Source: Candidatus Nomurabacteria bacterium RIFCSPHIGHO2_02_FULL_35_13
GTDB taxonomy: Bacteria; Patescibacteriota; Minisyncoccia; Phycocordibacterales; UBA9973
Length of the DNA: 38,962 bases
Direction of reading: 5' to 3'
Assembly (NCBI GenBank): GCA_001785515.1
Contig: MFTY01000002.1
Coordinates: 1-38,962 of the forward strand
How positions within the stretch are numbered: the first letter of the stretch is position 1; the number at the start of each line of letters is the position of its first letter. The notes below the pieces were generated by a model. It ran no database searches. It was not told the origin of the DNA and worked only from the letters and a program-made list of their open reading frames with translations. Made by a program: the position numbers and the translations under genes. Below, one piece after another: positions 4,375-38,033 of this stretch.

Positions 4375-4503
4375 TTTAAAAAATCTAAAAAATATGCACT
4401 TTTTCCGGGTACGGATTTTTTGAAGCTTAAAAAATCCTGAAGTTTTCGCGCCGTCGCGCTCAAAACCCCCTACAAAAGTCATATTTTATAGATTTTTTTA
4501 AAT
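4375..4503. repeat. Structured repeat family 1, copy B
   Basis: Arms 4375-4404 and 4474-4503 are inverted copies of each other with a few mismatches and are unrelated to the arms of other copies. The core has the same hairpin b as copies A, C, D and F. In hairpin a the outer stem is TTT/AAA instead of TTC/GAA. The right arm ends about 2 bp from the rny stop codon. Confidence 0.9.
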
Positions 4504-6873: not shown

Positions 6874-6998
6874 AATAAAAAATAAAGAATGATATTTTTG
6901 CCGGTACGGATTTTTTGAAGCTTAAAAAATCCTGAAATTCTCGCGCCGTCGCGCTTGAAACCCCTTAAAAACATCATTCTTTGTTTTTTATTGATTTT
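6869..6998. repeat. Structured repeat family 1, copy C
   Basis: Left arm 6869-6899 and right arm 6967-6998 are inverted copies with few mismatches. The right arm contains the last codons and stop of tig (minus strand stop at 6988-6990), so the left arm is an inverted copy of a coding 3' end. The core is nearly identical to copies A, D and F. Confidence 0.9.
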
Positions 6999-8117: not shown

Positions 8118-8236
8118 AAAATAAAGACCAAAAGTAAGTTTTTAAGGGGTTTCAAGCGCGACGGCGCAAGAATTTCAGGATTTTTTAAGCTTCAAAAAAT
8201 CCGTACCGGCAAAAATTTACTTTTAGTCTTTATTTC
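8118..8236. repeat. Structured repeat family 1, copy D
   Basis: Arms 8118-8143 and 8211-8236 are near-perfect inverted copies. The core is in the orientation opposite to A-C, reading AAGGGGTTTC, GCGC-GACG-GCGC, then the AAGCTT-loop hairpin. It lies between tig and the small membrane protein at 8247, antisense to both. Confidence 0.9.
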
Positions 8237-11285: not shown

Positions 11286-11294
11286 ATTTTTTTA

Positions 11295-11328
11295 CTTGCC
11301 CGTCCGAAGCTTTATGCGAAGGAGGGCA
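11295..11328. repeat. Palindromic repeat family 4, copy 1
   Basis: The repeat begins CTTGCCCGTCCG and ends GCGAAGGAGGGCA. TGCCC pairs with GGGCA and TCC with GGA around an inner loop. It lies in the nusA-hppA gap. The related copy at 33912-33943 lies between tmk and dut. Confidence 0.8.
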
Positions 11329-11343
11329 TTATTAATAATAAAT

Positions 11344-12567: not shown

Positions 12568-12661
12568 AATTATGAAAATTAAAAAATTTAAAGCGTCGTG
12601 GGTTCCCTGTCCTTTTGTCCCCGAGGGCGAAGGCGCCAAAATTTTTTGAATTTTAATAATT
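12568..12661. repeat. Structured repeat family 2, upstream of nusA
   Basis: Inverted AT-rich arms (12568-12594 and 12635-12661, a few mismatches) enclose a core that on the minus strand reads GCCTTCGCCCTCGGGGACA, then AGGACAGGGAACCCACGACG. The same core occurs at 27174-27223 and 34406-34452 with different arms. Confidence 0.85.
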
Positions 12662-12912: not shown

Positions 12913-13761
12913 ATGAAAACCACACTAGTTCTTCTTGTTTTCTTGCTTTCTCCTGTTTTTTCACAGGGGATTCCAAGTGTAAACGGATGGTCATTCAATT
13001 TTGATTCATCCATGGATGTGGATTCATTCAAAACAAGGTCCTCACTGAAAAATGGTTTCCAGATATTTGGAAACTATGGCAAGGTGAGGGAAGGACGCAA
13101 CTTTGCCGAGTTCAACTGGTCAAAATACATGACAACCCAAACGCCAGATAGTGTCATTGTTGATGTTTTTTTTAACAATACAGACACTTCTGTAACAGGC
13201 ATGTGGATTGGTCTCGCAATAGTGGATTCAAATCACTATTGGTACCAGCTGAAACCTCTATTTTTGGATGCACCTTTCTGGTATCCAATATCTTGGGATG
13301 TAAGAGAAGCAAAGGCAACAATAAGTAGCTTCACCGAGATATATTTGATGTTTTTCTTGATTTCTAATAACTCCTCTGATGTCGGTGCCGAAGTAATGGT
13401 AGATAATCTAAGGGGGATAGATGGCACATTGGGTACTGTCATCTATGACAACTTCAGCAGCTCTACCACGGGAATTTCCGAGGAAGAGCAGATTCCACAA
13501 GGGTTTGCTCTTGAACAGAACTATCCCAACCCTTTCAATCCCTTCACAACAATCAGATTTACTGTTCCTCAACGGGAATATGTGAGTTTGGTTGTCTTCA
13601 ATTCTCTTGGACAAGAAGTGAGGAGCCTTGTCGAAAGAGAAGAGGGAATTGGAAGCCATGAAGTTGAGTTTGACGCCTCAAATCTTCCGAGTGGAGTATA
13701 TTTCTACAGACTGCGAGCAGGCAGTTTTGTAGAAACGAAGAGATTAGTTCTTTTGAGGTAA
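12913..13761 (+). CDS. Secreted protein with T9SS type A C-terminal sorting domain
   Basis: The 282-residue protein has a signal peptide (about 1-18, LVLLVFLLSPVFSQG), a beta-rich domain (about 20-180, Trp/Tyr/Phe-rich, looking like a carbohydrate-binding sandwich) and a C-terminal domain (about 200-282). That last domain begins LEQNYPNPFNPFTTIRF and ends LPSGVYFYRL...TKRLVLLR, the classic Por/type IX sorting signature of Bacteroidota, Ignavibacteria and relatives. CPR cells have no outer membrane or known T9SS. The gene is visibly richer in G+C than its neighbours and has AGGAGG 4 nt before the ATG, while many other genes here look leaderless. Together these suggest recent transfer from an FCB-group bacterium, or an assembly join. 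An adhesive role is a guess. Confidence 0.85.
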   Translation: MKTTLVLLVFLLSPVFSQGIPSVNGWSFNFDSSMDVDSFKTRSSLKNGFQIFGNYGKVREGRNFAEFNWSKYMTTQTPDSVIVDVFFNNTDTSVTGMWIGLAIVDSNHYWYQLKPLFLDAPFWYPISWDVREAKATISSFTEIYLMFFLISNNSSDVGAEVMVDNLRGIDGTLGTVIYDNFSSSTTGISEEEQIPQGFALEQNYPNPFNPFTTIRFTVPQREYVSLVVFNSLGQEVRSLVEREEGIGSHEVEFDASNLPSGVYFYRLRAGSFVETKRLVLLR

Positions 13762-17553: not shown

Positions 17554-17587
17554 GCAAGACCAGTAAGACTTTAATAAGAAAAGACTT

Positions 17588-17614
17588 AACTAGCAAGGAC
17601 TGTCCTTGCTAGTT
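17588..17614. repeat. Left palindrome of the RAYT cassette
   Basis: A 27-nt palindrome with 13-bp arms around a single T; the half-site is AACTAGCAAGGAC. The inner 23 nt are identical to the palindrome at the right end of the transposase gene (18321-18343). Confidence 0.92.
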
Positions 17615-17626
17615 GAACTACAAGTT

Positions 17627-17640
17627 GATATAATTTAACA
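17627..17640 (+). promoter_or_regulatory. RAYT promoter, extended -10, leaderless type
   Basis: TGaTATAAT (TATAAT at 17629-17634), 6 nt before the ATG at 17641 and 13 bp after the left palindrome. Confidence 0.7.
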
Positions 17641-18324
17641 ATGCAAAGGAAAGATCCATTTGTAGTTGGTGAGTGTTATCATGTCTATAATCGTGGTATT
17701 GATAAAAGAGTCATTTTTAAATCTATTTACGATTATCAGCGTTTTATAATGCTTTTATATATAGCGAATAGTCAAGATCCGATTCATCTTGATAATCTTA
17801 TAAATAAAAATCATAAAAATTATCAAGAAATTTTTGATACAGAACGTGGTAAGTCATTGGTATCAATCGGTGCATGGTCTTTAATGACTAATCATTTTCA
17901 TATTATTTTACGCGAAGAAGTAGAAAGTGGAATAAGTAAATTTATGAAAAAATTTGGTACTGGATATTCAATGTATTTCAATATTAAGTATCAACGTACT
18001 GGTGGACTTTTTGGTGGACCATTTAAGTCAAAACATATTTTAGAAGATTTACACTTAAAGCATTTATTTGGATATGTTCATCTAAATCCACTTGATATTA
18101 AATTTTCTGGTTGGGAAAAATTGATTGACAAAAAACAACCAAAAGAATGGAAAGATTTTTTAGAAGATTATTTATATTCAAGTTATCAGGATTATACTTG
18201 GACAGAACGAAAGGAAGCGAAAATTTTGAATAAAAATGCCTTCCCTAATTATTTTTCAGAAGAAGATTCCTTTGAAGATTTTATTGATAACTATTTGTCG
18301 TTTAATCCAGATAACCTCCACTAG
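17641..18324 (+). CDS. REP-associated tyrosine transposase (RAYT, Y1/HUH family)
   Basis: The 227-residue Y1 transposase (IS200-like fold) starts with FVVGECYHVYNRGIDKRVIF and has the HUH metal motif H85-F-H87 (MTNHFHIIL). Candidate catalytic tyrosines are Y109 or Y112 in the following helix (GTGYSMYFN), followed by the conserved LFGGPFKSKHI block. RAYTs are domesticated single-strand transposases that process REP palindromes. The gene is flanked by two identical 23-nt palindromic cores, and the right one overlaps its stop codon. All catalytic features appear intact. It interrupts the stretch between surface protein genes and the pilus operon. It is the only transposase-type gene in the window and so the best candidate to act on the many palindromic repeats. 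Confidence 0.93.
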   Translation: MQRKDPFVVGECYHVYNRGIDKRVIFKSIYDYQRFIMLLYIANSQDPIHLDNLINKNHKNYQEIFDTERGKSLVSIGAWSLMTNHFHIILREEVESGISKFMKKFGTGYSMYFNIKYQRTGGLFGGPFKSKHILEDLHLKHLFGYVHLNPLDIKFSGWEKLIDKKQPKEWKDFLEDYLYSSYQDYTWTERKEAKILNKNAFPNYFSEEDSFEDFIDNYLSFNPDNLH

Positions 18325-18351
18325 CAAGGACTGTCCTTGCTAGTGGAGGTT
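18313..18351. repeat. Right palindrome of the RAYT cassette, arms extended into the gene end
   Basis: A perfect 39-nt palindrome (19-bp arms, central T). The inner 23 nt equal the left palindrome. The outer 8 bp (AACCTCCA, mirrored by TGGAGGTT) are the last codons of the transposase gene and their inverted copy. The TAG stop lies in the conserved part. Confidence 0.9.
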
Positions 18352-18386
18352 CTGCTTTGTTTTATCAAGGCGAGACCCTAGTAGCA

Positions 18387-18401: not shown

Positions 18402-20150
18402 ATGCAAATCAACGAAGAGCAATTAAAAAAAGTTATTTTGGAATCAGGACTCGTTTCACGTTCCGAACTTGATACATTAGTTAAAAAAGCTGAAACAAAA
18501 AATCAAAAACTCTCTAATATTTTATTATCGGACGGAAAAATATCTGAAACCGATTTAAAACGAATGGAAGCTTTTGTTTTAGAAATACCTTTTATTAGTT
18601 TGGTTAATAAAAAAATTGATTTTTCCATCCTTTCTCTTATTCCTGAACCGATTGCCAGAAACCACAACATAATTTCTTATAAAAAAAGTGAAGCGGGCTT
18701 GGAGGTGGCAATGCTGGACGTTGACGATTTGCCAATGATTGATTTTATTAAAAAACGTTCAGGAGAAAAAATCCTGCCTCGTCTCACTGACACTGATTCA
18801 ATTAAATCTGCGCTTGTTCAGTATAGAAAAAGTTTACAAGCCGATTTTGATAATATCATCCAAAAAGAATCTATTTCGCTTAAAAATATTTCTAAAGATG
18901 AACCGGAAAATACCGAAGAAGAATTAAAAGCCCTAGCTGAAGATTTACCGATAATTAAAATCGTTGACTCTCTGGTGTCTCACGCTATTTTGCAAAATGC
19001 TTCCGATATTCACATTGAACCAGGAGAAAACGAATTGACTGTAAGATACAGAATAGACGGTATGTTGCATGATGCAATGGTATTAGATAAAAATACTGCG
19101 CCAGGAATAATTACCCGAATAAAAGTATTATCTAATTTGAAACTTGATGAAAAAAGATTACCCCAAGACGGAAGATTCAAGATAGAACAGAATGGAGAAA
19201 AAGTTTCTTTCCGTGTTTCTACCTTACCTACTTTTTATGGAGAAAAAGCGGTGGTTAGAATTTTAAAAGAAGATTCGCATGGTTTTTCCCTTGATTCTTT
19301 GGGTTTTCATGGTGAAGGTTTGGAAAGAATTTATGACTCTCTAAAACAGAGAGTTGGTATGGTGCTTGCCACAGGGCCTACGGGAAGTGGAAAAACAACA
19401 ACTCTTTACACAATGCTTGAAATTTTAAACAAACCAGAAGTCAATATTTCCACAGTTGAAGACCCGATTGAATATCAAATACCCAGAGTAAATCAAACTC
19501 AAGTAAAACCGGAAATCGGCCTCACTTTTGCAAACGGACTTCGCTCTCTTCTTCGACAAGACCCCGACATAGTAATGGTTGGAGAAATTCGTGACGGTGA
19601 AACTGCAGGATTGGCAGTGAATGCTTCACTTACGGGGCATCTTGTTCTATCAACTATCCATACCAGTTCCGCATCTGGAGCAATACCAAGATTAATAGAT
19701 ATGGGTGTCCTACCATTTTTAATAATTTCTACAGTCAAAACAATTATTGCGCAGAGGTTGGTGCGAAAACTTGTATCAAGTAAAGAAAAATATCTTTTAT
19801 CAGTAGACGAGATAAAAAACTTGGCAAAAGTTGTTGATTTAGACCGCATGCTTTCAATATTAAAAAATGAAAAAATTATAGGACCGGAAGATAAATGGGA
19901 AACAATTCCTTTTTATAAGCCGGTAAAAAATAATGAGTCTCCGGACGGATATTTGGGCCGTGTTGGAATACACGAAGTGTTAAAAGTCACATCTTCCATA
20001 AAAGAAATGATTATTCGCGGAAGTTCTCAAGATGAAATAGAAGGGCAAGCAAAAAAGGAGGGTATGATGACAGTTTTAGAAGATGGAGTTTTTAAAGCAG
20101 TTTTGGGGCAAACGAGTTTAGAAGAAGTATTTCGTGTGGTTTCAGAATAA
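18402..20150 (+). CDS. pilB: Type IV pilus assembly ATPase PilB
   Basis: The 582-residue GspE/PilB-type ATPase has an N-terminal MshEN-like domain (about 1-150), then the ATPase with N2 domain, Walker A GPTGSGKT at 325-332, Asp box and Walker B (LRQDPDIVMVGEIRD), and His box (TGHLVLSTIHTSSA). It powers pilin polymerisation from the inner face of the membrane. The zinc tetracysteine motif of many GspE/PilB proteins is absent: after QRLVRKL comes VSSKEKY with no CxxC. Length and order are otherwise normal. It begins the pilus operon and is followed by pilC after an inserted repeat-like sequence of about 130 bp. No PilT is in the window. Confidence 0.95.
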   Translation: MQINEEQLKKVILESGLVSRSELDTLVKKAETKNQKLSNILLSDGKISETDLKRMEAFVLEIPFISLVNKKIDFSILSLIPEPIARNHNIISYKKSEAGLEVAMLDVDDLPMIDFIKKRSGEKILPRLTDTDSIKSALVQYRKSLQADFDNIIQKESISLKNISKDEPENTEEELKALAEDLPIIKIVDSLVSHAILQNASDIHIEPGENELTVRYRIDGMLHDAMVLDKNTAPGIITRIKVLSNLKLDEKRLPQDGRFKIEQNGEKVSFRVSTLPTFYGEKAVVRILKEDSHGFSLDSLGFHGEGLERIYDSLKQRVGMVLATGPTGSGKTTTLYTMLEILNKPEVNISTVEDPIEYQIPRVNQTQVKPEIGLTFANGLRSLLRQDPDIVMVGEIRDGETAGLAVNASLTGHLVLSTIHTSSASGAIPRLIDMGVLPFLIISTVKTIIAQRLVRKLVSSKEKYLLSVDEIKNLAKVVDLDRMLSILKNEKIIGPEDKWETIPFYKPVKNNESPDGYLGRVGIHEVLKVTSSIKEMIIRGSSQDEIEGQAKKEGMMTVLEDGVFKAVLGQTSLEEVFRVVSE

Positions 20151-20156
20151 ATTATG

Positions 20157-20287
20157 AATTATAAAACTCTTTCTTTGTACAAGTTTTTGCTAGACACGCA
20201 TAAAAATCTGCTGATTTTTTGCTATGCTCGGCTCGTCGGCCTGCGCAATGTCTTTCAAAAACTGCACCTGCGACGAGTTTTATAATT
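20157..20287. repeat. Palindrome-bounded insert between pilB and pilC
   Basis: AATTATAAAACTC (20157-20169) is the exact reverse complement of 20275-20287. Inside, CTCGTCG (20232-20238) pairs with CGACGAG (20271-20277), and AAAATC/GATTTT makes a small hairpin near 20202-20217. The G+C-rich part reads through the apparent N-terminal extension of pilC but is probably not translated. Confidence 0.6.
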
Positions 20288-20298
20288 TTTTATATAAT
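20281..20298 (+). promoter_or_regulatory. Possible internal promoter before pilC
   Basis: Two TATAAT boxes lie at 20281-20286 and 20293-20298. The first would give a start about 6 nt before the pilC ATG at 20299. It lies within or next to the right arm of the insert. Confidence 0.4.
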
Positions 20299-21516
20299 AT
20301 GCTTTTTTCATACAAAGCAAAATTAAAAAATGGAGAAATTTTTAAAAGCACAATGGATGCGACAGACCGTTTTTCTCTTTCTCGCGAACTAAAGTCTCGC
20401 GGAAATACCCCCATATCCATAAAAGAGAAAAAATATAATTCTTTTAATTTTTTGCCTACGTTTCAACGCATCTTTTCAAAAGTAAATACCGAAGAAAAAA
20501 TTATTTTTACTAAAAATCTAAGCGGAATGCTTAAAGCCGGGCTTTCGCTTTTTAGAGCTTTGTCAGTTTTAAAGAAACAAACAAAAAATCCCGCCTTCAA
20601 TGAAATTTTGACATCCTTAAGCGATGAAATAAATTCCGGAGGAACCCTTTCTTCAGGACTTGCAAAATTCCCAAATGTTTTTTCAAAACTTTTCGTATCA
20701 ATGACGCGCGCCGGCGAAGAATCCGGGAACCTCGATAATGCGCTTTCTGAAATCGGTATGAATTTGGAAAAAGCGCATTCCTTGACCAAGAAAATAAATG
20801 GAGCACTCATATATCCCGGAGTAATTCTTTCCGCCATGATTTTAATAGGTGTTTTGATGTTTGCTTTTGTTGTGCCGACACTTGCTGGCACATTTCAAGA
20901 ATTGGGAGTGCCGTTGCCGGCTTCCACAAGGTTTATAATTTTATTAGGCAACTTTTTTTATGAACATTTGATTTTATCTTTTGTCTTAATAATCGGGTCC
21001 GCTATTGCGATAGTTTCTTTCTTACGAGCATCTTTTATGAAGAAATATGTTGATTTTGTAATTATAAGACTTCCTATTGTTGGTAAATTATCCAAAGAGT
21101 TAAATACCGCCCGTACTACACGCACCATGTCTTCGCTTTTGCTATCGGGAGTTTCTATAACTCGAGCCATAGAAATAACAGAAGACGTGGTGCAAAATGT
21201 TTATTATAAAAAAGTTTTAAAACAAGCGAAAGAAGCGATAGAAAAAGGAGTTCCGTTTTCCAGAGTTTTCGAAGAAAATCAAAATCTTTATCCGGTAATG
21301 ATGACAGAGATGATTCAAGTGGGGGAAGAGACTGGAAAATTATCGGATATGTTATTTCAGATTGCTTCTTTTTATGAAGGAGAAATAGAAAATAAAACCA
21401 AGAATCTTTCCGTAATTATTGAACCCGTACTTATGATATTTATCGGAGTTGCTGTCGGATTTTTCGCTATTTCAATGATTTCACCTTTGTATTCGGTAAT
21501 GGATAATATAAAATAA
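20299..21516 (+). CDS. pilC: Type IV pilus inner-membrane platform protein PilC
   Basis: I chose the ATG at 20299 (405 residues), because PilC/GspF proteins begin with a segment like MLFSYKAKLKNGEIFKSTMDA. The frame extends 25 codons upstream into the repeat-like insert with a Cys-rich, non-family sequence. There are two GspF domains (about 60-185 and 265-385) and three membrane helices (about 170, 215 and 375-395). Conserved GLSLFRALSVL and GVSITRAIEI segments begin the two repeats. PilC is the platform on which PilB acts. The stop overlaps the next ATG (TAATG), indicating translational coupling to the first pilin gene. Confidence 0.93.
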   Translation: MLFSYKAKLKNGEIFKSTMDATDRFSLSRELKSRGNTPISIKEKKYNSFNFLPTFQRIFSKVNTEEKIIFTKNLSGMLKAGLSLFRALSVLKKQTKNPAFNEILTSLSDEINSGGTLSSGLAKFPNVFSKLFVSMTRAGEESGNLDNALSEIGMNLEKAHSLTKKINGALIYPGVILSAMILIGVLMFAFVVPTLAGTFQELGVPLPASTRFIILLGNFFYEHLILSFVLIIGSAIAIVSFLRASFMKKYVDFVIIRLPIVGKLSKELNTARTTRTMSSLLLSGVSITRAIEITEDVVQNVYYKKVLKQAKEAIEKGVPFSRVFEENQNLYPVMMTEMIQVGEETGKLSDMLFQIASFYEGEIENKTKNLSVIIEPVLMIFIGVAVGFFAISMISPLYSVMDNIK

Positions 21517-26540: not shown

Positions 26541-26675
26541 GAATTGCAAAAATTGTTGAAGGCATATCTTTTTTAGGGGGTTTGGCGAGCGACGGCGAGC
26601 CAACTTCAGAACTTTTTAAGCTTCAAAAAGTTCGTACCCTAGAAAAAGATATGCCGAGAAAGATTTTTGTAATTC
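26541..26675. repeat. Structured repeat family 1, copy E (covarying copy)
   Basis: Inverted arms 26541-26574 and 26641-26675 are the longest of the family. Hairpin b is GAACTTTTT/AAAAAGTTC instead of GGATTTTTT/AAAAAATCC: two pairs changed, both compensated, loop kept. Hairpin a is TTGGC-GA-GC-GACG-GC-GA-GCCAA, again re-paired with new sequence. It separates the divergent hit and recJ promoters. Confidence 0.92.
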
Positions 26676-26692: not shown

Positions 26693-28438
26693 ATGCAACA
26701 ATACTCGGAACTACTCCGAACGATTTTGGAAAAAAGAGGTATAAGAAATCTGGCTGAAGCTGAGATTTTTTTGAATCCCGATTATGAACGTGATTTATAT
26801 GACCCGTTTGAAATGAAAGATATGGAAAAAGCTTGTGTTAAGCTTTTTGAGGTAATAGAAAATAAGGAGAAGATAGTTATATATGCCGATTATGATTGCG
26901 ACGGCATTCCTGGAGCGGTTATCTTGCAGGATTTATTTAAAAAGATAGGCTATTCAAATTATGAGATTTATATTCCGGGGAGAAACTCAGAAGGTTACGG
27001 ACTTAATCTTTCTGCTATAAAACAATTTGCTCAAAAAAGAGTGAAACTTTTGATAACCATTGACCTTGGTATTACAGCAGTTTCTGAAATTGCACAAGCG
27101 GAAATAGATGGAATTGATGTGATTATCACCGACCACCACTTACCAAAACAGAAAGTTCAGGATGTAAAAAATTCTCCCGCCTTCGCCCTCGGAGACATAA
27201 GTCCAGGGGACCCACGGCTCCTTAATTTTTTACATCCTGAACTTTCTTTGCCGAAAGCTTATGCAATTTTAAATCCAAAAGTTGATAATTACCCTGAAAA
27301 AATATTATGTGGCGCCGGAGTAGTATTCAAATTAGTACAAGGATTTATAAAAAAATACGGAGAATTCTATAAAATAAATACTGGTTGGGAAAAATGGTTG
27401 CTGGATATGGCAGGTTTGGCTACACTTTCAGACCTTGTTCCTCTTGTGGGTGAAAATAGAGCCATGGCATATTTTGGAATAAAGGTTTTAAAAAAATCTC
27501 CTCGCCCTGGTGTGCAAAAACTTCTGTCTAAAATGAAAATTAACCCAAAATACCTGACAGAAGACGATATTGGTTTTATGATAACACCCAGACTCAATGC
27601 AGCATCGCGAATGGATAACCCTATGATGGCATACGAGCTTCTTTCTACGGAAGATGAAGTAAGAGCAGGAGTGATTGCAGACCACTTATCTAAAATAAAT
27701 GATGATAGAAAAACAATGGTCGCCGGTATTATGCGTGAAGTTAATAAAAAATTTGAAAAACGAGAAACTAAGAAAGTTATTGTTATAGGTAATCCCAAAT
27801 GGCGTGTGGGTGTATTGGGACTTGTAGCCAGCAAAATATCAGATGAATACAAAAAACCCGTTTTTGTCTGGGGTAAAGATGAAAATGATATTATAAAAGG
27901 TTCTTGTAGAAGCGATGGGTCAGTATCTCTTGTTGAGCTTATGACTGAAACTAATGAATTTTTTTTAGAATTTGGTGGACACGAATTTGCCGGTGGATTT
28001 ACGGTTCATAGCGAAAAGATCCATTTTTTGGAAGAAGCCCTTTCTCTTTCTTTTAACAAAGTGAAGCGTGATAAAACAGAAAACGAGATAATTTTTGATA
28101 TAAAATCTGATTTGAGTATGGTGAATATGAAAAATTGGCGTGAAATAGAAAAACTTGCTCCCTTTGGGCTAGCTAATCCCAAACCAATTTTTCTTTTTGA
28201 AAACGTGAATATAGAGAATATTAAAAAATTTGGCAAGAACGGGTCAGGGGAACATTTAGAAATTACTTTTTCAGATATAAGTAAAAATAAAGTTAAAGCA
28301 ATTTCTTTTTTCTCTAGCAGTGAATCTTTTAAAGTTCCATTATCAGAAAACATAAAAGTAAATCTTCTCGCAACTTTTGATTTATCCAGATTCAAAGGTA
28401 GAGAAGAGCTAAGACTTAGAATAATTGATATAATATAA
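26693..28438 (+). CDS. recJ: Single-strand-specific exonuclease RecJ
   Basis: The 581-residue DHH-superfamily 5'-3' ssDNA exonuclease has motif I ADYDCDG at 65-71, a further Asp in ITIDLGI (121-127), DHH at 147-149, the DHHA1 domain with SCRSDGSVSLVEL and EFGGHEFAGGF, and a C-terminal OB-like domain (about 460-581). RecJ acts in recombination repair, mismatch repair and processing of transformed DNA. Directly after DHHLP is an insertion of about 30 residues (about 153-186, including SPAFALGDISPGDPRLL). It is encoded by a family 2 repeat with perfect 24-bp inverted arms; in other RecJ proteins the chain goes quickly on to AILNPK. The reading frame is kept. rnhA follows after 7 bp. Confidence 0.95.
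   Translation: MQQYSELLRTILEKRGIRNLAEAEIFLNPDYERDLYDPFEMKDMEKACVKLFEVIENKEKIVIYADYDCDGIPGAVILQDLFKKIGYSNYEIYIPGRNSEGYGLNLSAIKQFAQKRVKLLITIDLGITAVSEIAQAEIDGIDVIITDHHLPKQKVQDVKNSPAFALGDISPGDPRLLNFLHPELSLPKAYAILNPKVDNYPEKILCGAGVVFKLVQGFIKKYGEFYKINTGWEKWLLDMAGLATLSDLVPLVGENRAMAYFGIKVLKKSPRPGVQKLLSKMKINPKYLTEDDIGFMITPRLNAASRMDNPMMAYELLSTEDEVRAGVIADHLSKINDDRKTMVAGIMREVNKKFEKRETKKVIVIGNPKWRVGVLGLVASKISDEYKKPVFVWGKDENDIIKGSCRSDGSVSLVELMTETNEFFLEFGGHEFAGGFTVHSEKIHFLEEALSLSFNKVKRDKTENEIIFDIKSDLSMVNMKNWREIEKLAPFGLANPKPIFLFENVNIENIKKFGKNGSGEHLEITFSDISKNKVKAISFFSSSESFKVPLSENIKVNLLATFDLSRFKGREELRLRIIDII
27150..27247. repeat. Structured repeat family 2, inside recJ
   Basis: Arms 27150-27173 and 27224-27247 are perfect 24-bp inverted repeats. 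The 50-bp core starts CTCCCGCCTTCGCCCTCGG and ends CAGGGGACCCACGGCTCCTT, matching the copies at 12568 and 34386. It is fully translated as part of RecJ. Confidence 0.93.
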
Positions 28439-28930: not shown

Positions 28931-30409
28931 ATGCAGGATAGAGTTTTTTATACAACCTGTTTTGGTTTTATAATTGGAGTGCTTTTGCGTTCTTTTATTT
29001 TTATAAATTTATATTTTACTCTTTTGTTTCTAGTAATTTCTTTCGCATTTATTATATTTTTTATTTTTATTTCAAAAAATAAGTGGGGTATTATAGTTTC
29101 CGTTTTTATTTTAGTGTTTTTCATTGGAATTTTTCGTTTTTACATGGTTGATGTTTCCGCGCCTAGTGTTTTTGAATCTCATGTTGGTGAAAAAGTTTCT
29201 TTATCTGGGAAAATTATAGATGAGCCAAATATTGCGGAAAATAATCAGAAATTAACCGTGGAAATACAAGATGGAAAAAATAAAACAGAAATTTTAATGT
29301 CAGCAAATTTAAGTGAAGATTATAAATATGGAGACAATATAAATTTCGAAGGTATTTTAAAAAAGCCGGAAAATTTTATAACAGACCAAGGCAAGGAATT
29401 TGATTATATAAATTATTTACGAAAAGATGGAATTTTTTATATAATAAATTACCCAAAAATCGAAGTAATATCGCATGGAAATGGGAATTTTATAAAAAGT
29501 GCGTTATTTTACGCTAAAGAAATTTTTTTAAATAAAATAAATTTAGCAATTAGGGAACCGGAATCATTACTTATGAGTGGTCTTATTTTAGGCGAAAAAT
29601 CATCCTTTGATGAATCTCTAAGACAAAGTTTTGTGGATACAGGCACGATACATATCGTTGCGCTTTCCGGATACAATGTGACAATCGTTGCTGAATGGAT
29701 TATGAAATTTTTTTCTTCTTTTCCTAAAAATATAGGAATTGGTGCCGGCATATTTGCCATCTTGCTTTTTGTTTTAATGACTGGCGGGTCTTCAACAGCA
29801 GTGCGAGCGGGGATAATGGCAAGTCTAGCCTTATTTGCCCGTCTAATAGGCAGAAATTATGATGTCACGCGGGCACTAATACTCGCCGGTGTAGTTATGG
29901 TTTTAATAAACCCTTTTGTTCTCGTTTTTGATGTTTCCTTTCAACTTTCTTTTATAGCTACCGTGGCAGTTATCTTTTTTTCGCCTAAAATTGAAAAATA
30001 TTTTTTATGGGTTACGCCCCGTTTGGGATTGCGAGATATCGTATCAGTTACTTGCGCGGCTTATATTTTTGTTATGCCTTTTATTCTTTATAAGATGGGT
30101 AATCTTTCTTTAGTAGCGTTGCCCGCAAATGTATTAATTCTGCCTTTCATTCCGCCTACCATGATTTTAGGTTTTTTGACTGGTTTTGCTGGAGTTATTT
30201 GGTATGTTCCGGCAATTATATTGGGGTACATCTCATATTTTTTTCTTCACTATGAGCTTGCTGTCATAAGTTTTTTCTCCAACATACCATTTGCCGCATT
30301 AACTATACCTAATTTCCCGTTTATTTTTACACTGCTAATCTATCTCTATTTTATTTACAGACTTTTTGGGAAAAGCATAAAAAAATTTTTCTCAGAAACT
30401 CAAGAATAA
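28931..30409 (+). CDS. comEC: ComEC N-terminal half: DNA-uptake membrane channel
   Basis: The 492-residue protein matches the first part of ComEC/Rec2: a few N-terminal membrane helices (about 5-75), an extracellular OB-like DUF4131 domain (about 85-160, VGEKVSLSGKIIDEPN), and the Competence domain with about seven helices (about 210-480, including VALSGYNVTIVAEWIMKFF). It transports single-stranded DNA across the membrane. The metallo-beta-lactamase-like domain normally fused at the C-terminus is absent; it is encoded separately at 31113. The last codons and stop (FSETQE) form the left arm of repeat copy F. It follows rnhA by 5 bp. Confidence 0.9.
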   Translation: MQDRVFYTTCFGFIIGVLLRSFIFINLYFTLLFLVISFAFIIFFIFISKNKWGIIVSVFILVFFIGIFRFYMVDVSAPSVFESHVGEKVSLSGKIIDEPNIAENNQKLTVEIQDGKNKTEILMSANLSEDYKYGDNINFEGILKKPENFITDQGKEFDYINYLRKDGIFYIINYPKIEVISHGNGNFIKSALFYAKEIFLNKINLAIREPESLLMSGLILGEKSSFDESLRQSFVDTGTIHIVALSGYNVTIVAEWIMKFFSSFPKNIGIGAGIFAILLFVLMTGGSSTAVRAGIMASLALFARLIGRNYDVTRALILAGVVMVLINPFVLVFDVSFQLSFIATVAVIFFSPKIEKYFLWVTPRLGLRDIVSVTCAAYIFVMPFILYKMGNLSLVALPANVLILPFIPPTMILGFLTGFAGVIWYVPAIILGYISYFFLHYELAVISFFSNIPFAALTIPNFPFIFTLLIYLYFIYRLFGKSIKKFFSETQE

Positions 30410-30506
30410 TGTTTTTAAGGGGTTTCGAGCGCGACGGCGCGAGAATTTCAGGATTTTTTAAGCTTCAAAAAATCCGTACCGGCAAAAATATTATTCTTGA
30501 GTTTCT
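30394..30506. repeat. Structured repeat family 1, copy F
   Basis: Arms 30394-30416 and 30484-30506 match at 22 of 23 positions. The left arm includes the last five codons and stop of comEC; the right arm ends 1 bp before the sodA stop (minus strand, 30508-30510). The core is nearly identical to copy D. With convergent genes either side, the hairpin could act as a bidirectional terminator here. Confidence 0.92.
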
Positions 30507-30507
30507 A

Positions 30508-33218: not shown

Positions 33219-33926
33219 ATGAAAAAATATAAAGGCAAACTAATAGTTATAGACGGTACGGATGGTAGCGGAAAGGCGACGCAAGTTGAACTTTTGGCAA
33301 AAAGATTGAAGAGCGAAGGCAAAACAGTAAAAATTGTCGATTTTCCTGAATATTATAAAAATTTTTTTGGGGAATTTGTAGGGCATTGTCTTAGTGAACA
33401 ATATTATAAGTTTTTGGGTGTTCATCCCAAAATTGCGTCAGTATTGTATGCAGCGGACAGATGGGAATCTAAAAATGAAATAGAAAATTGGCTTAAAAAA
33501 GGATATATAATTATCGCCAATCGATATGTTAGCGCCAATCAAATACACCAGGGTGGAAAAATTAAAAACGCAAAAAAAAGAAATAGTTTCATAAAATGGC
33601 TTGATGAAATGGAATATGAAGTTTTTAAGATTCCTCGTCCCAACATTACTTTATACCTGAGTTTGCCCATAGAAATAGTTCTTAGACTTTTAAAAGACCG
33701 TGATAGTAGTAAAATGAAAAGAGCTTATTTGAAAAAGAAAAAAGACGTTCACGAGAAAGATGTGAATTTTTTGATAAATTCCCGCAAGAGCGCCTTGAAA
33801 CTGGTTAAAGAAATTCCGAATTTTATTAAAATAGAATGTTCTCAAAAAGGCGAGATTTTATCTCGTCAGAAAGTTCACGAAATGATTTATGAAAAAGTTA
33901 AAAAAGTTATACTTGCCCGTCCGTAG
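33219..33926 (+). CDS. tmk: Thymidylate kinase
   Basis: I chose the ATG at 33219 (235 residues), because MKKYKGKLIVIDGTDGSGK fits the family; the ATG at 33198 would overlap glyA. The P-loop is GTDGSGKAT at 13-21. A DFPEY segment follows, as does the thymidine-binding DRWESK and NRYVSANQIHQGGK, with a Lys/Arg-rich LID region (SSKMKRAYLKKKKDVHEKD). It phosphorylates dTMP. The last four residues (LARP) and the stop codon come from a palindromic repeat (33912-33943), so the natural C-terminus has been replaced or extended by it. dut follows 26 bp later. Confidence 0.93.
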   Translation: MKKYKGKLIVIDGTDGSGKATQVELLAKRLKSEGKTVKIVDFPEYYKNFFGEFVGHCLSEQYYKFLGVHPKIASVLYAADRWESKNEIENWLKKGYIIIANRYVSANQIHQGGKIKNAKKRNSFIKWLDEMEYEVFKIPRPNITLYLSLPIEIVLRLLKDRDSSKMKRAYLKKKKDVHEKDVNFLINSRKSALKLVKEIPNFIKIECSQKGEILSRQKVHEMIYEKVKKVILARP

Positions 33927-33943
33927 CTTTTAGCGAAGGAGGG
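33912..33943. repeat. Palindromic repeat family 4, copy 2, giving tmk stop and dut SD
   Basis: Shares CTTGCCCGTCCG and GCGAAGGAGGG with 11295-11328. The tmk TAG stop (33924-33926) lies in its loop region. Its 3' end AAGGAGGG (33936-33943) sits 9 nt before the dut ATG at the proper Shine-Dalgarno distance. Confidence 0.85.
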
Positions 33944-33952
33944 AAATAAATT

Positions 33953-34385: not shown

Positions 34386-34472
34386 ATGCTCTGGTAAAGA
34401 ATTTTTGAGCCTTCGCCCTCGGAGTCATAAGGACAGGGAACCCACGACTCTTAAAATTCTTTACCAGAGCAT
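34386..34472. repeat. Structured repeat family 2, between dut and argS
   Basis: Perfect 20-bp inverted arms (34386-34405, ATGCTCTGGTAAAGAATTTT, and 34453-34472). The core reads GAGCCTTCGCCCTCGGAG, then ACAGGGAACCCACGACTC, so GAG/CTC closes it. The frame of argS is open through most of it, but its product does not resemble ArgS. Confidence 0.92.
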
Positions 34473-36284: not shown

Positions 36285-38033
36285 ATGACAAGCAAAACAC
36301 CAAAATTTGATGCCGCCATAAGTGAAACTTTAAAATCGCTTATTCCTCATACGCGAACGTGTAAATGGAAAGGTATGCATTCTTACTGCGAAAACGAATT
36401 TAATATTGAAGAAGGGGATATTAAATTTCTAAAAATGTTTTCTATGCCTCCGCCAAATTTTTGTCCAACTTGTAGAAGAATGCGACGATTTGTGCATATG
36501 AATTTTTCACGACTTTTTAAGCGTGAATGTGATGCTCCCAGCCATAAAGAAAAAATGATCTCAATTTTTCCGGAAGAATGTCCGTTTCCTGTATATGATT
36601 ATCAATATTTTATTGGTGATGAATTTAATGCTTTTTCATTTGGGGTTAAATATGAAGAGGATGATAACCCGATAAAAATTTTATCATCTATTCGTAAAAA
36701 ATTTCCAATGCCATCGTTTTTAAATCGTGACCCATCTTCCATAAATAGCGAATATTCAAACGGCGGGCGTGATTTAAAGAATGGTTATTATGTTATGGCT
36801 TGTTATCACGTTGAAGATGCTTGGTATTCCAGTATGATTCAAAAAAGTCGTAATGTTATGGATTCCTTATATATTTGGGATTCGGAATTCATATATGAGT
36901 GTTTTTCTTCAGATCATTTGTATAAATCTTCTTTTATTTATTTTTCCAGCAATTGTATCGATAGTATATTTCTTTTTGATTGTCGTAATTGTCAAAATTG
37001 TTTCGGATGTGTAAATCTACGAAATAATAGGTATTGTGTTTATAATAAACAACTATCAAAAGAAGAGTATGAATCATTTATCAACTCAGTTTTTCCTCTC
37101 TCTAAAGAGGCTCTTAATAGTTATGAAAAAAAATTCTGGGATTTGGTTAAAACTTTGCCGGCAAACGGTCCCAGAAACATTGCGACTAGCAACGTTTCCG
37201 GGGTTAATATAACTAATTCCAAAAATTTATATGATGTTATTGATGCGGATAATTCCGAAAATATCAGACATGCAGATGGTGCTCTTTCCCATAGAGATTC
37301 GATGGATTTTCTTTTTTCAGGTGGTAATTCGAGTTTGTTATATATGACTACTAATATCGGTTCACAATCCAGTCGGGTAAAATTTTCTCTATCCTCGAAA
37401 GGCTGTACTGATTGTGAATTTATTTTTAATTCAAAAAATCTGAATAATTGTTTTATGTGTTTTGGACTTCAAAATAAATCATATTGTGTTTTGAATAGAC
37501 AATATACGGAGGAAGAATATTTTAAAATTATTGATGATATAAAATTTAAATGTTTGGAAGAAGGAATATATGGGAATGGTCTGGGTTTGGAATTTTCAGC
37601 TCAAGCATACAATTTTTCTTTAGCGCAAATTTCTTTTCCGCTTAGTGATAAAGAAATAGTAAAACTTGGCGGTTATGTGGCAAAAGAACCGGAGACAAAC
37701 GTTGGTAATATAGAAGTTATAAAATACAAAGATTTGCCAAAAACAATTCAGGAAGTGTCTAATGATATTTTAAATAAAGCAATACTTTGTGAAACGAGTA
37801 GCAGACCTTTTAGAATAACTGCTTCTGAGCTAGGATTTTATCGAAGAATGAATTTACCTCTTCCTGATATGCATCCATTATTACGTATAGAAAAAAGACT
37901 TCGTTTTGTGAAAGACGGAAAAAAATATAAAGCGGTATGTAAAAAATGTGATAAAGACATTGAAACTGTATTTAATCCGTCGGAAAATTTTCTTATTTAT
38001 TGCGACAAGTGTTATCAGCAAGAAGTATCATAA
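36285..38033 (+). CDS. CPR-type zinc-ribbon protein of unknown function
   Basis: The 582-residue protein has an N-terminal zinc-ribbon-like part (about 24-66, C...C, then FCPTCRRMRRFVHMN) and FPEECPFPVYDYQYF. The long middle region has repeated Cys/Asn/Tyr motifs (CRNCQNCFGCVNLRNNRYCVYNKQLSKEEYE at about 233-263; a similar NCFMCFGLQNKSYCVLNRQYTEEEYF at about 387-412). A C-terminal CxxC...CxxC ribbon covers about 547-578. Proteins of this family are frequent in Parcubacteria and often carry a misleading CaiB/BaiF name, although there is no CoA-transferase similarity. The repeats look like a right-handed solenoid with metal or disulfide sites. Function unknown. It lies between two tRNA synthetase genes. 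Confidence 0.7.
   Translation: MTSKTPKFDAAISETLKSLIPHTRTCKWKGMHSYCENEFNIEEGDIKFLKMFSMPPPNFCPTCRRMRRFVHMNFSRLFKRECDAPSHKEKMISIFPEECPFPVYDYQYFIGDEFNAFSFGVKYEEDDNPIKILSSIRKKFPMPSFLNRDPSSINSEYSNGGRDLKNGYYVMACYHVEDAWYSSMIQKSRNVMDSLYIWDSEFIYECFSSDHLYKSSFIYFSSNCIDSIFLFDCRNCQNCFGCVNLRNNRYCVYNKQLSKEEYESFINSVFPLSKEALNSYEKKFWDLVKTLPANGPRNIATSNVSGVNITNSKNLYDVIDADNSENIRHADGALSHRDSMDFLFSGGNSSLLYMTTNIGSQSSRVKFSLSSKGCTDCEFIFNSKNLNNCFMCFGLQNKSYCVLNRQYTEEEYFKIIDDIKFKCLEEGIYGNGLGLEFSAQAYNFSLAQISFPLSDKEIVKLGGYVAKEPETNVGNIEVIKYKDLPKTIQEVSNDILNKAILCETSSRPFRITASELGFYRRMNLPLPDMHPLLRIEKRLRFVKDGKKYKAVCKKCDKDIETVFNPSENFLIYCDKCYQQEVS

Follow-up and report, generated by a model that had tools for sequence, protein, structure and literature searches.

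In the window analysed here (a stretch of 38,962 nucleotides from a 554-kb Patescibacteria genome, G000), a palindromic element, copy E (26541-26675, plus strand), sits between a divergent HIT-family gene and recJ. A preliminary description had proposed, from compensatory base changes in copy E, that pairing itself is conserved at this locus, which raises the question of whether a fold is under selection there and what kind of element would carry it.

Fold of copy E and its compensatory changes

Copy E is a long-form element that folds as RNA at -56.7 kcal/mol (z -8.4 vs shuffled sequences) and also as single-stranded DNA (z -7.6 vs shuffles). All parts of the fold were located on the plus strand. 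A 14-bp outer stem (26541-26554 pairing with 26662-26675) is followed by a 6x6 internal loop made of GTTGAA (26555-26560) and GAGAAA (26656-26661), by a 14-bp inner stem (5′ arm GGCATATCTTTTTT at 26561-26574, 3′ arm at 26642-26655) and by a three-way junction with hairpins a (26582-26603) and b (26609-26633), both included in the 62-nt core GGGGT...GTACC (26577-26638). The entire outer stem, which had been overlooked, belongs to the structure, and the internal loop recurs among other long-form copies, its GTTGAA side being kept. A covariance model, R1, matched copy E at 26566-26650 with 87.2 bits.

The coordinates and sequences of copy E agreed with the preliminary description, and all the changes listed there were found. 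Hairpin b reads GAACTTTTT-AAGCTTC-AAAAAGTTC in copy E vs GGATTTTTT-AAGCTTC-AAAAAATCC elsewhere, with two compensated pairs and an unchanged loop, as had been claimed, and the paired change reported for copy B (C-G to T-A) is present as well. Hairpin a, which had been described as fully re-paired, carries the sequence TTGGC-GA-GC-GACG-GC-GA-GCCAA vs TTC-GA-GCGC-GACG-GCGC-GA-GAA in other copies, with the tandem GA/GA mismatch and the GACG loop. The changes exist, but they are not compensated position by position, since the GA/GA internal loop is shifted by 2 bp, a register shift shared by a minority of the remaining copies. Comparison of copy E with a close long-form copy of the same genome (L335) revealed four doubly compensated Watson-Crick pairs; hairpin a includes a G-C to C-G swap, and hairpin b has one broken pair.

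Five further copies in the window share the 62-nt core: copies A (198-315), B (4375-4501) and C (6874-6992, between trigger-factor-like and ClpP-like genes) on the minus strand, and copies D (8119-8235) and F (30394-30507, between convergent ComEC-like and superoxide-dismutase-like genes) on the plus strand, the 5′ arm of copy F overlapping the 3′ coding end of the ComEC-like gene. All six copies score 87-98 bits with R1. A related element at 20143-20301 (minus strand; R1 17 bits, fold z -6.3) has a copy-E-type outer module round a different three-way-junction core (family 4-like). In the loci examined, this module surrounds three or more distinct cores, so that core swapping within an existing module is plausible for copy E.

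Covariation and strand bias of the stems

The preliminary description had proposed a covariation test of the R-scape type and expected covarying pairs in both hairpins. This test was approximated on 77 distinct copies by a G-test with APC, the null being obtained from substitutions re-dropped on a FastTree tree (200 simulations). Five pairs of hairpin a were significant (E<0.05; (8,25), (13,20), (12,21), (14,19) and (7,26) in core numbering), together with one pair of the outer stem, (-4,67), these values being those of paralogues that may exchange modules, placed on a tree from short sequences. Pair (6,27) gave an E of 0.065. Three couplings below 0.05 fell outside the base pairs of the structure, (10,24), (10,22) and (0,63), the first two as a result of the GA register shift. 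The expectation was thus borne out for hairpin a. Hairpin b and its flanks are near invariant in sequence, and hairpin b alone was not significant because it varies too little; when 143 copies were collected through the core ends and hairpin a only, the pairs that had changed in hairpin b comprised 10 double Watson-Crick changes, 5 single G-U and 2 broken pairs.

In an alignment of 36 sequences, 92.9% of the paired cells were able to pair vs 76.7% in shuffles, and the covariation score was 0.425 vs 0.139 in shuffled alignments (0/500 shuffles reached it), with at most 0.118 in slid-structure controls. Paired changes dominate the larger alignment, and the dominance of unpaired substitutions that would have spoken against the earlier claim was not seen. 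These data indicate a structured RNA or single-stranded DNA element with a conserved fold and significant covariation, in hairpin a and in the outer stem, which supports the selection on a folded RNA or folded single DNA strand put forward previously. In the long stems, DNA fold-back copying rather than selection may account for some of the covariation.

In general, the element is about 96-147 nt long and consists of a core of about 62 nt with two hairpins (exactly 62 nt in 118/123 parsed copies), made into a cloverleaf-like three-way junction by a closing stem of 17-30 bp. The arms of one copy pair with each other at a mean of -26.9 kcal/mol vs -9.1 kcal/mol for swapped arms, and the excess of pairing over swapped arms ends at a distance of about 36-40 nt from the core. 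The shared sequence information drops off after about 17 nt, both in G000 and in two related genomes, G080 and G081, indicating that the inner stem is part of the element and that the outer stem is locus-specific though complementary. Outer-arm 13-mers found elsewhere matched other hairpins in 2/73 hits in G080 and 20/104 in G081; these totals, which bear on a possible inheritance of the arms from donor copies, were not above flank controls.

The stem shows strand-specific wobble. Of the interior mismatches counted in unique contexts, 46 were G.T and 10 A.C up to 24 pairs from the core, and 12 and 16, respectively, farther out. This excess of G.T in the inner stem suggests selection on one strand as a folded molecule. 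The bias marks which strand folds and leans to RNA over single-stranded DNA; alternatively, more frequent C-to-T mutation on one of the strands may be its source.

Dispersal and turnover at gene ends

The family of copy E (family 1) has about 21-22 copies in G000, six of them in the window; 21 places were defined by hairpin b with at most three mismatches, a limit beyond which copy E lies, and the other long-form copies of this genome were retrieved by the pattern of the outer module. An exact 30-mer was found in at least 110 stretches from GTDB genomes labelled Nomura-, Yanofsky-, Vogel- and Yonathbacteria. Dispersal is multi-copy and patchy, the element being present in 41/80 genomes of the genus with 0-28 copies each, up to 28 in a genome of about 0.7 Mb. 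Across a sparse sampling of the phylum, R1 was positive in 7/286 genomes, five of them within the same order including G000, these counts being lower bounds with the best 15 candidates per genome scored. No match to the element above the gathering score was obtained in Rfam 15, where hits were at chance level, nor any match in phages, plasmids and viral contigs including IMG/VR, and no description of such an element in Patescibacteria was found in the open-access literature.

Crude gene calls around 142 copies placed 43 between convergent genes, 22 between divergent genes and 77 between same-strand genes, the convergent share (30%) exceeding the 14-18% of background gene pairs. The median distance to stop codons was about 30 nt, same-strand copies were antisense in 49 cases and sense in 28, and 7/142 overlapped a crude ORF call. 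A position only 3′ of genes, as expected of an intrinsic terminator, was not seen, given the 22 divergent copies and the divergent setting of copy E. At the site of copy F, relatives show either no hairpin or other cores, whose arms often overlap the 3′ coding end of the comEC-like gene. In several of them the gap measures 1-20 nt and contains neither a hairpin nor an inverted repeat, which does not support simple insertion into a pre-existing hairpin at this site. In one relative (L193, genome G003), a 5′ arm plus AAGGGGT is left at the comEC/sod junction, fused directly to the sod-like coding end, and the sod-like gene seems to take its stop codon from this residual arm.

Sites turn over quickly. 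Genomes G080 and G081, the sole two of their genus, are 89.6% identical over 376 kb, and a manual tally of about 15 comparable family-1 sites revealed the same core in the same orientation at 5 of them (one being a remnant deleted between TCAAAAA repeats), an inverted core at 2, another core family with other arms at 6 and no element at 2. At the recA site (L269 vs L293), the sequence GAGAACCAAGAATAA, with which the recA coding region ends in G081, is present in inverted form in the 3′ arm of G080, whose own recA coding end is GAGAGCCAGGAATAA; the inverted copy is missing from the G081 site. Such an inverted copy is the trace expected of fold-back template switching. The empty site of the L264/L285 pair is equally explained by a TTTTG-repeat deletion, leaving the polarity of gain and loss unproven. 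Filled/empty pairs were few and ambiguous, and no target-site duplication or transposition intermediate was found.

Other palindromes behave in a related manner. Within recJ, an in-frame insertion of about 100 nt (27138-27239, plus strand) with 24-bp perfect arms belongs to an unrelated family (family 6). Nine of the 30 relatives compared hold 9 nt there instead, four, G000 included, have this insertion family in common, and others hold different insertions. Its arms differ with compensation (for instance GTTCAGGATGT/ACATCCTGAAC vs CTCAGGATAT/ATATCCTGAG) and show no copying from the recJ flanks. Several palindromic families of the genus share this codon position of recJ as a hot spot of insertion, and siblings of the recJ palindrome occur at 12580-12647 (minus strand) and 34386-34472. 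G080 and G081 together contain 57 hairpins with arms of at least 18 bp, at least 44 of which fall into three core families. Insertions can be nested, some copies containing other hairpins; in the loci examined, only small nested hairpins were found between the halves, and no autonomous parent with an ORF there. Near position 1500 of locus L334, a long-form element is nested in short-form-like arms (AAAACAATGTTTTTAA...TTATTTTCTGATTTTT).

Nature of the element

We consider it reasonably probable that copy E belongs to a dispersed palindromic repeat that is non-coding and conserved in structure, a MITE/REPIN-like parasite of a Patescibacteria order. The maintenance of shape while letters change suggests a small parasitic element living or moving as a folded single strand. 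We read it as a new family of non-autonomous palindromic repeats of small size, which fold-back template switching may have remodelled. Such an element would persist and spread as a folded single strand, either a transcript or single-stranded DNA exposed at replication, and would be tolerated chiefly at gene ends, the strand-specific wobble tolerance of its inner stem reflecting selection on that fold. Template switching during replication might copy one arm onto the other and in this way build and repair the outer arms; the locus-specific outer arms, core inversions and core swaps could perhaps be its products. Unlikely, though conceivable, is a bolder version in which a hairpin parasite would do without any dedicated enzyme, its core inducing template switching, copying itself into gene-end sites and building a stem from neighbouring sequence, with nested interchangeable cores in competition.

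The enrichment at convergent pairs (43/142, above the background share), the nearness to stop codons and the very stable fold are also compatible with a role at gene ends, where the element would be retained as a cis-acting RNA, a terminator or a 3′-end stabiliser of neighbouring transcripts, and the same gene-end site does hold different core families in relatives. This explanation is rather unlikely in view of the 22 copies, and copy E itself, located between divergent genes, of the predominance of antisense over sense among same-strand copies, of the absence of the element from half of the genus and of the short hairpin-free gaps of several relatives at the copy F site; moreover, conserved hairpins a and b would be superfluous in a terminator. 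The conserved junction and loops, together with the invariance of hairpin b and its flanks, would also suit a multi-copy trans-acting structured RNA, or a protein-binding RNA, with a cellular function, and yet the copy number of 0-28 among congeneric genomes and the rapid replacement at sites make such a role very improbable. Pairing could, on the other hand, arise with no selection on the fold at all, entirely from DNA-level palindrome correction by quasi-palindrome template switching. Concerted arm changes between genomes of 90% identity, core flips, inverted copies of adjacent sequence in the arms and the compensated changes even within the recJ coding insertion all fit this account, the same one as given for nematomorph mitochondrial palindromes (PMC6649704), and a one-strand C-to-T bias could mimic the wobble bias. 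However, palindrome correction predicts equal numbers of G.T and A.C, where the inner stem has 46 and 10, and it leaves unexplained the conserved unpaired features (the register-shifting GA/GA loop, the GNCG loop, the AAGCTTC loop and the 62-nt core), so that we regard it as improbable as the sole source of pairing.

The search for a helper enzyme by co-occurrence of Y1_Tnp and RVT_1 genes across the genus established none. Y1_Tnp genes occur in 55/80 genomes and their number correlates weakly with copy number (rho 0.34, p 0.002, uncorrected for phylogeny), which, with the presence of a RAYT-like gene in the window (17641-18324), would favour a strict REPIN mobilised by a RAYT transposase. We find this hardly credible: the hairpin bordering the RAYT-like gene, CTAGCAAGGACTGTCCTTGCTAG, is a different one, hairpins a and b do not form an inverted pair of a single REP, and genome G066 has 15 copies without any match to Y1_Tnp. 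Reverse transcriptase did not co-occur with the element (RVT_1; rho -0.15, p 0.20), and a retroelement-dependent repeat was rejected. Since G066 lacks reverse-transcriptase matches as well, neither enzyme is required for the presence of the element, whose helper may be of an unrelated type or lost. None of the Y1_Tnp places of G000, among the matches listed, adjoins a family-1 copy.

Several known repeats resemble the parasite-like repeat proposed here in part. Rickettsia palindromic elements (RPE; Ogata et al.) are stem-loop repeats of 105-146 bp in a reduced genome, found in intergenic regions and in frame in conserved protein genes (PMC2229807), and the in-frame recJ insertion of family 6 behaves as they do. 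They differ in sequence and fold, the family of copy E forming a three-way junction, and the in-frame case here belongs to another core family than that of copy E; furthermore, RPE arms lose their identity over time (PMC6649704), whereas the stems described here are locus-specific and re-paired. Palindromes in mitochondrial coding sequences of nematomorphs also have arms kept complementary by concerted change, for which template switching was proposed (PMC6649704), but theirs are near-perfect arms in protein genes, compared with a conserved core and wobble-tolerant inner stems here. REPINs and REP sequences associated with RAYT are extragenic, palindromic and non-autonomous, with compensatory changes and a proposed clover-like alternative fold (PMC3116915). 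The family of copy E shares these first properties, compensatory changes included; in contrast, hairpins a and b are mutually unrelated and not paired identical REPs, the outer stem is locus-specific and, among the Y1_Tnp genes inspected, no RAYT flanked by this family was found. The difference from MITEs lies in the terminal arms, which are locus-specific beyond about 17 nt instead of being fixed terminal inverted repeats. The Nostoc repeats SDR4, SDR5 and SDR6 of Elhai et al. (2008) reportedly have differing sequences and one secondary structure with compensatory mutations, and form nested insertions. Families of different sequence sharing one fold and nested insertions are likewise seen here; SDRs are 21-27 nt long, vs about 96-147 nt with a three-way junction in this case.

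Patescibacteria genomes are held to be streamlined, a view with which the presence of the copy E family in about half of the tested genomes of the genus contrasts, and other families of similar architecture occupy the same sites. Given the strand-specific wobble and arms that are remodelled in concert, it can be tested if the unit works as an RNA and if a hairpin can spread through replication template switching alone. For annotation, it matters that gene ends are affected, with an arm of copy F in the comEC-like end and another family adding about 30 residues to RecJ.

Other features of the window were recorded. The region 17570-18357, with the RAYT-like Y1_Tnp gene between its two flanking hairpins, has the typical RAYT/REP layout and is unrelated to copy E. 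No tRNA or tmRNA was found within the window. An ORF at 12913-13761 has a Por_Secre_tail domain (type IX secretion sorting), unusual for Patescibacteria, for which lateral transfer or an assembly chimera is possible. The large ORF at 36285-38033 gave a weak C-terminal zinc-finger match alone (zf_Tbcl_2, slightly under the cut-off). A short repeat, CTTGCCCGTCCGWAGCTTTWWGCGAAGGAGGG, occurs at 11290-11331 and 33907-33948, and a similar repeat is found at the comEC/sod site of a relative (L212).
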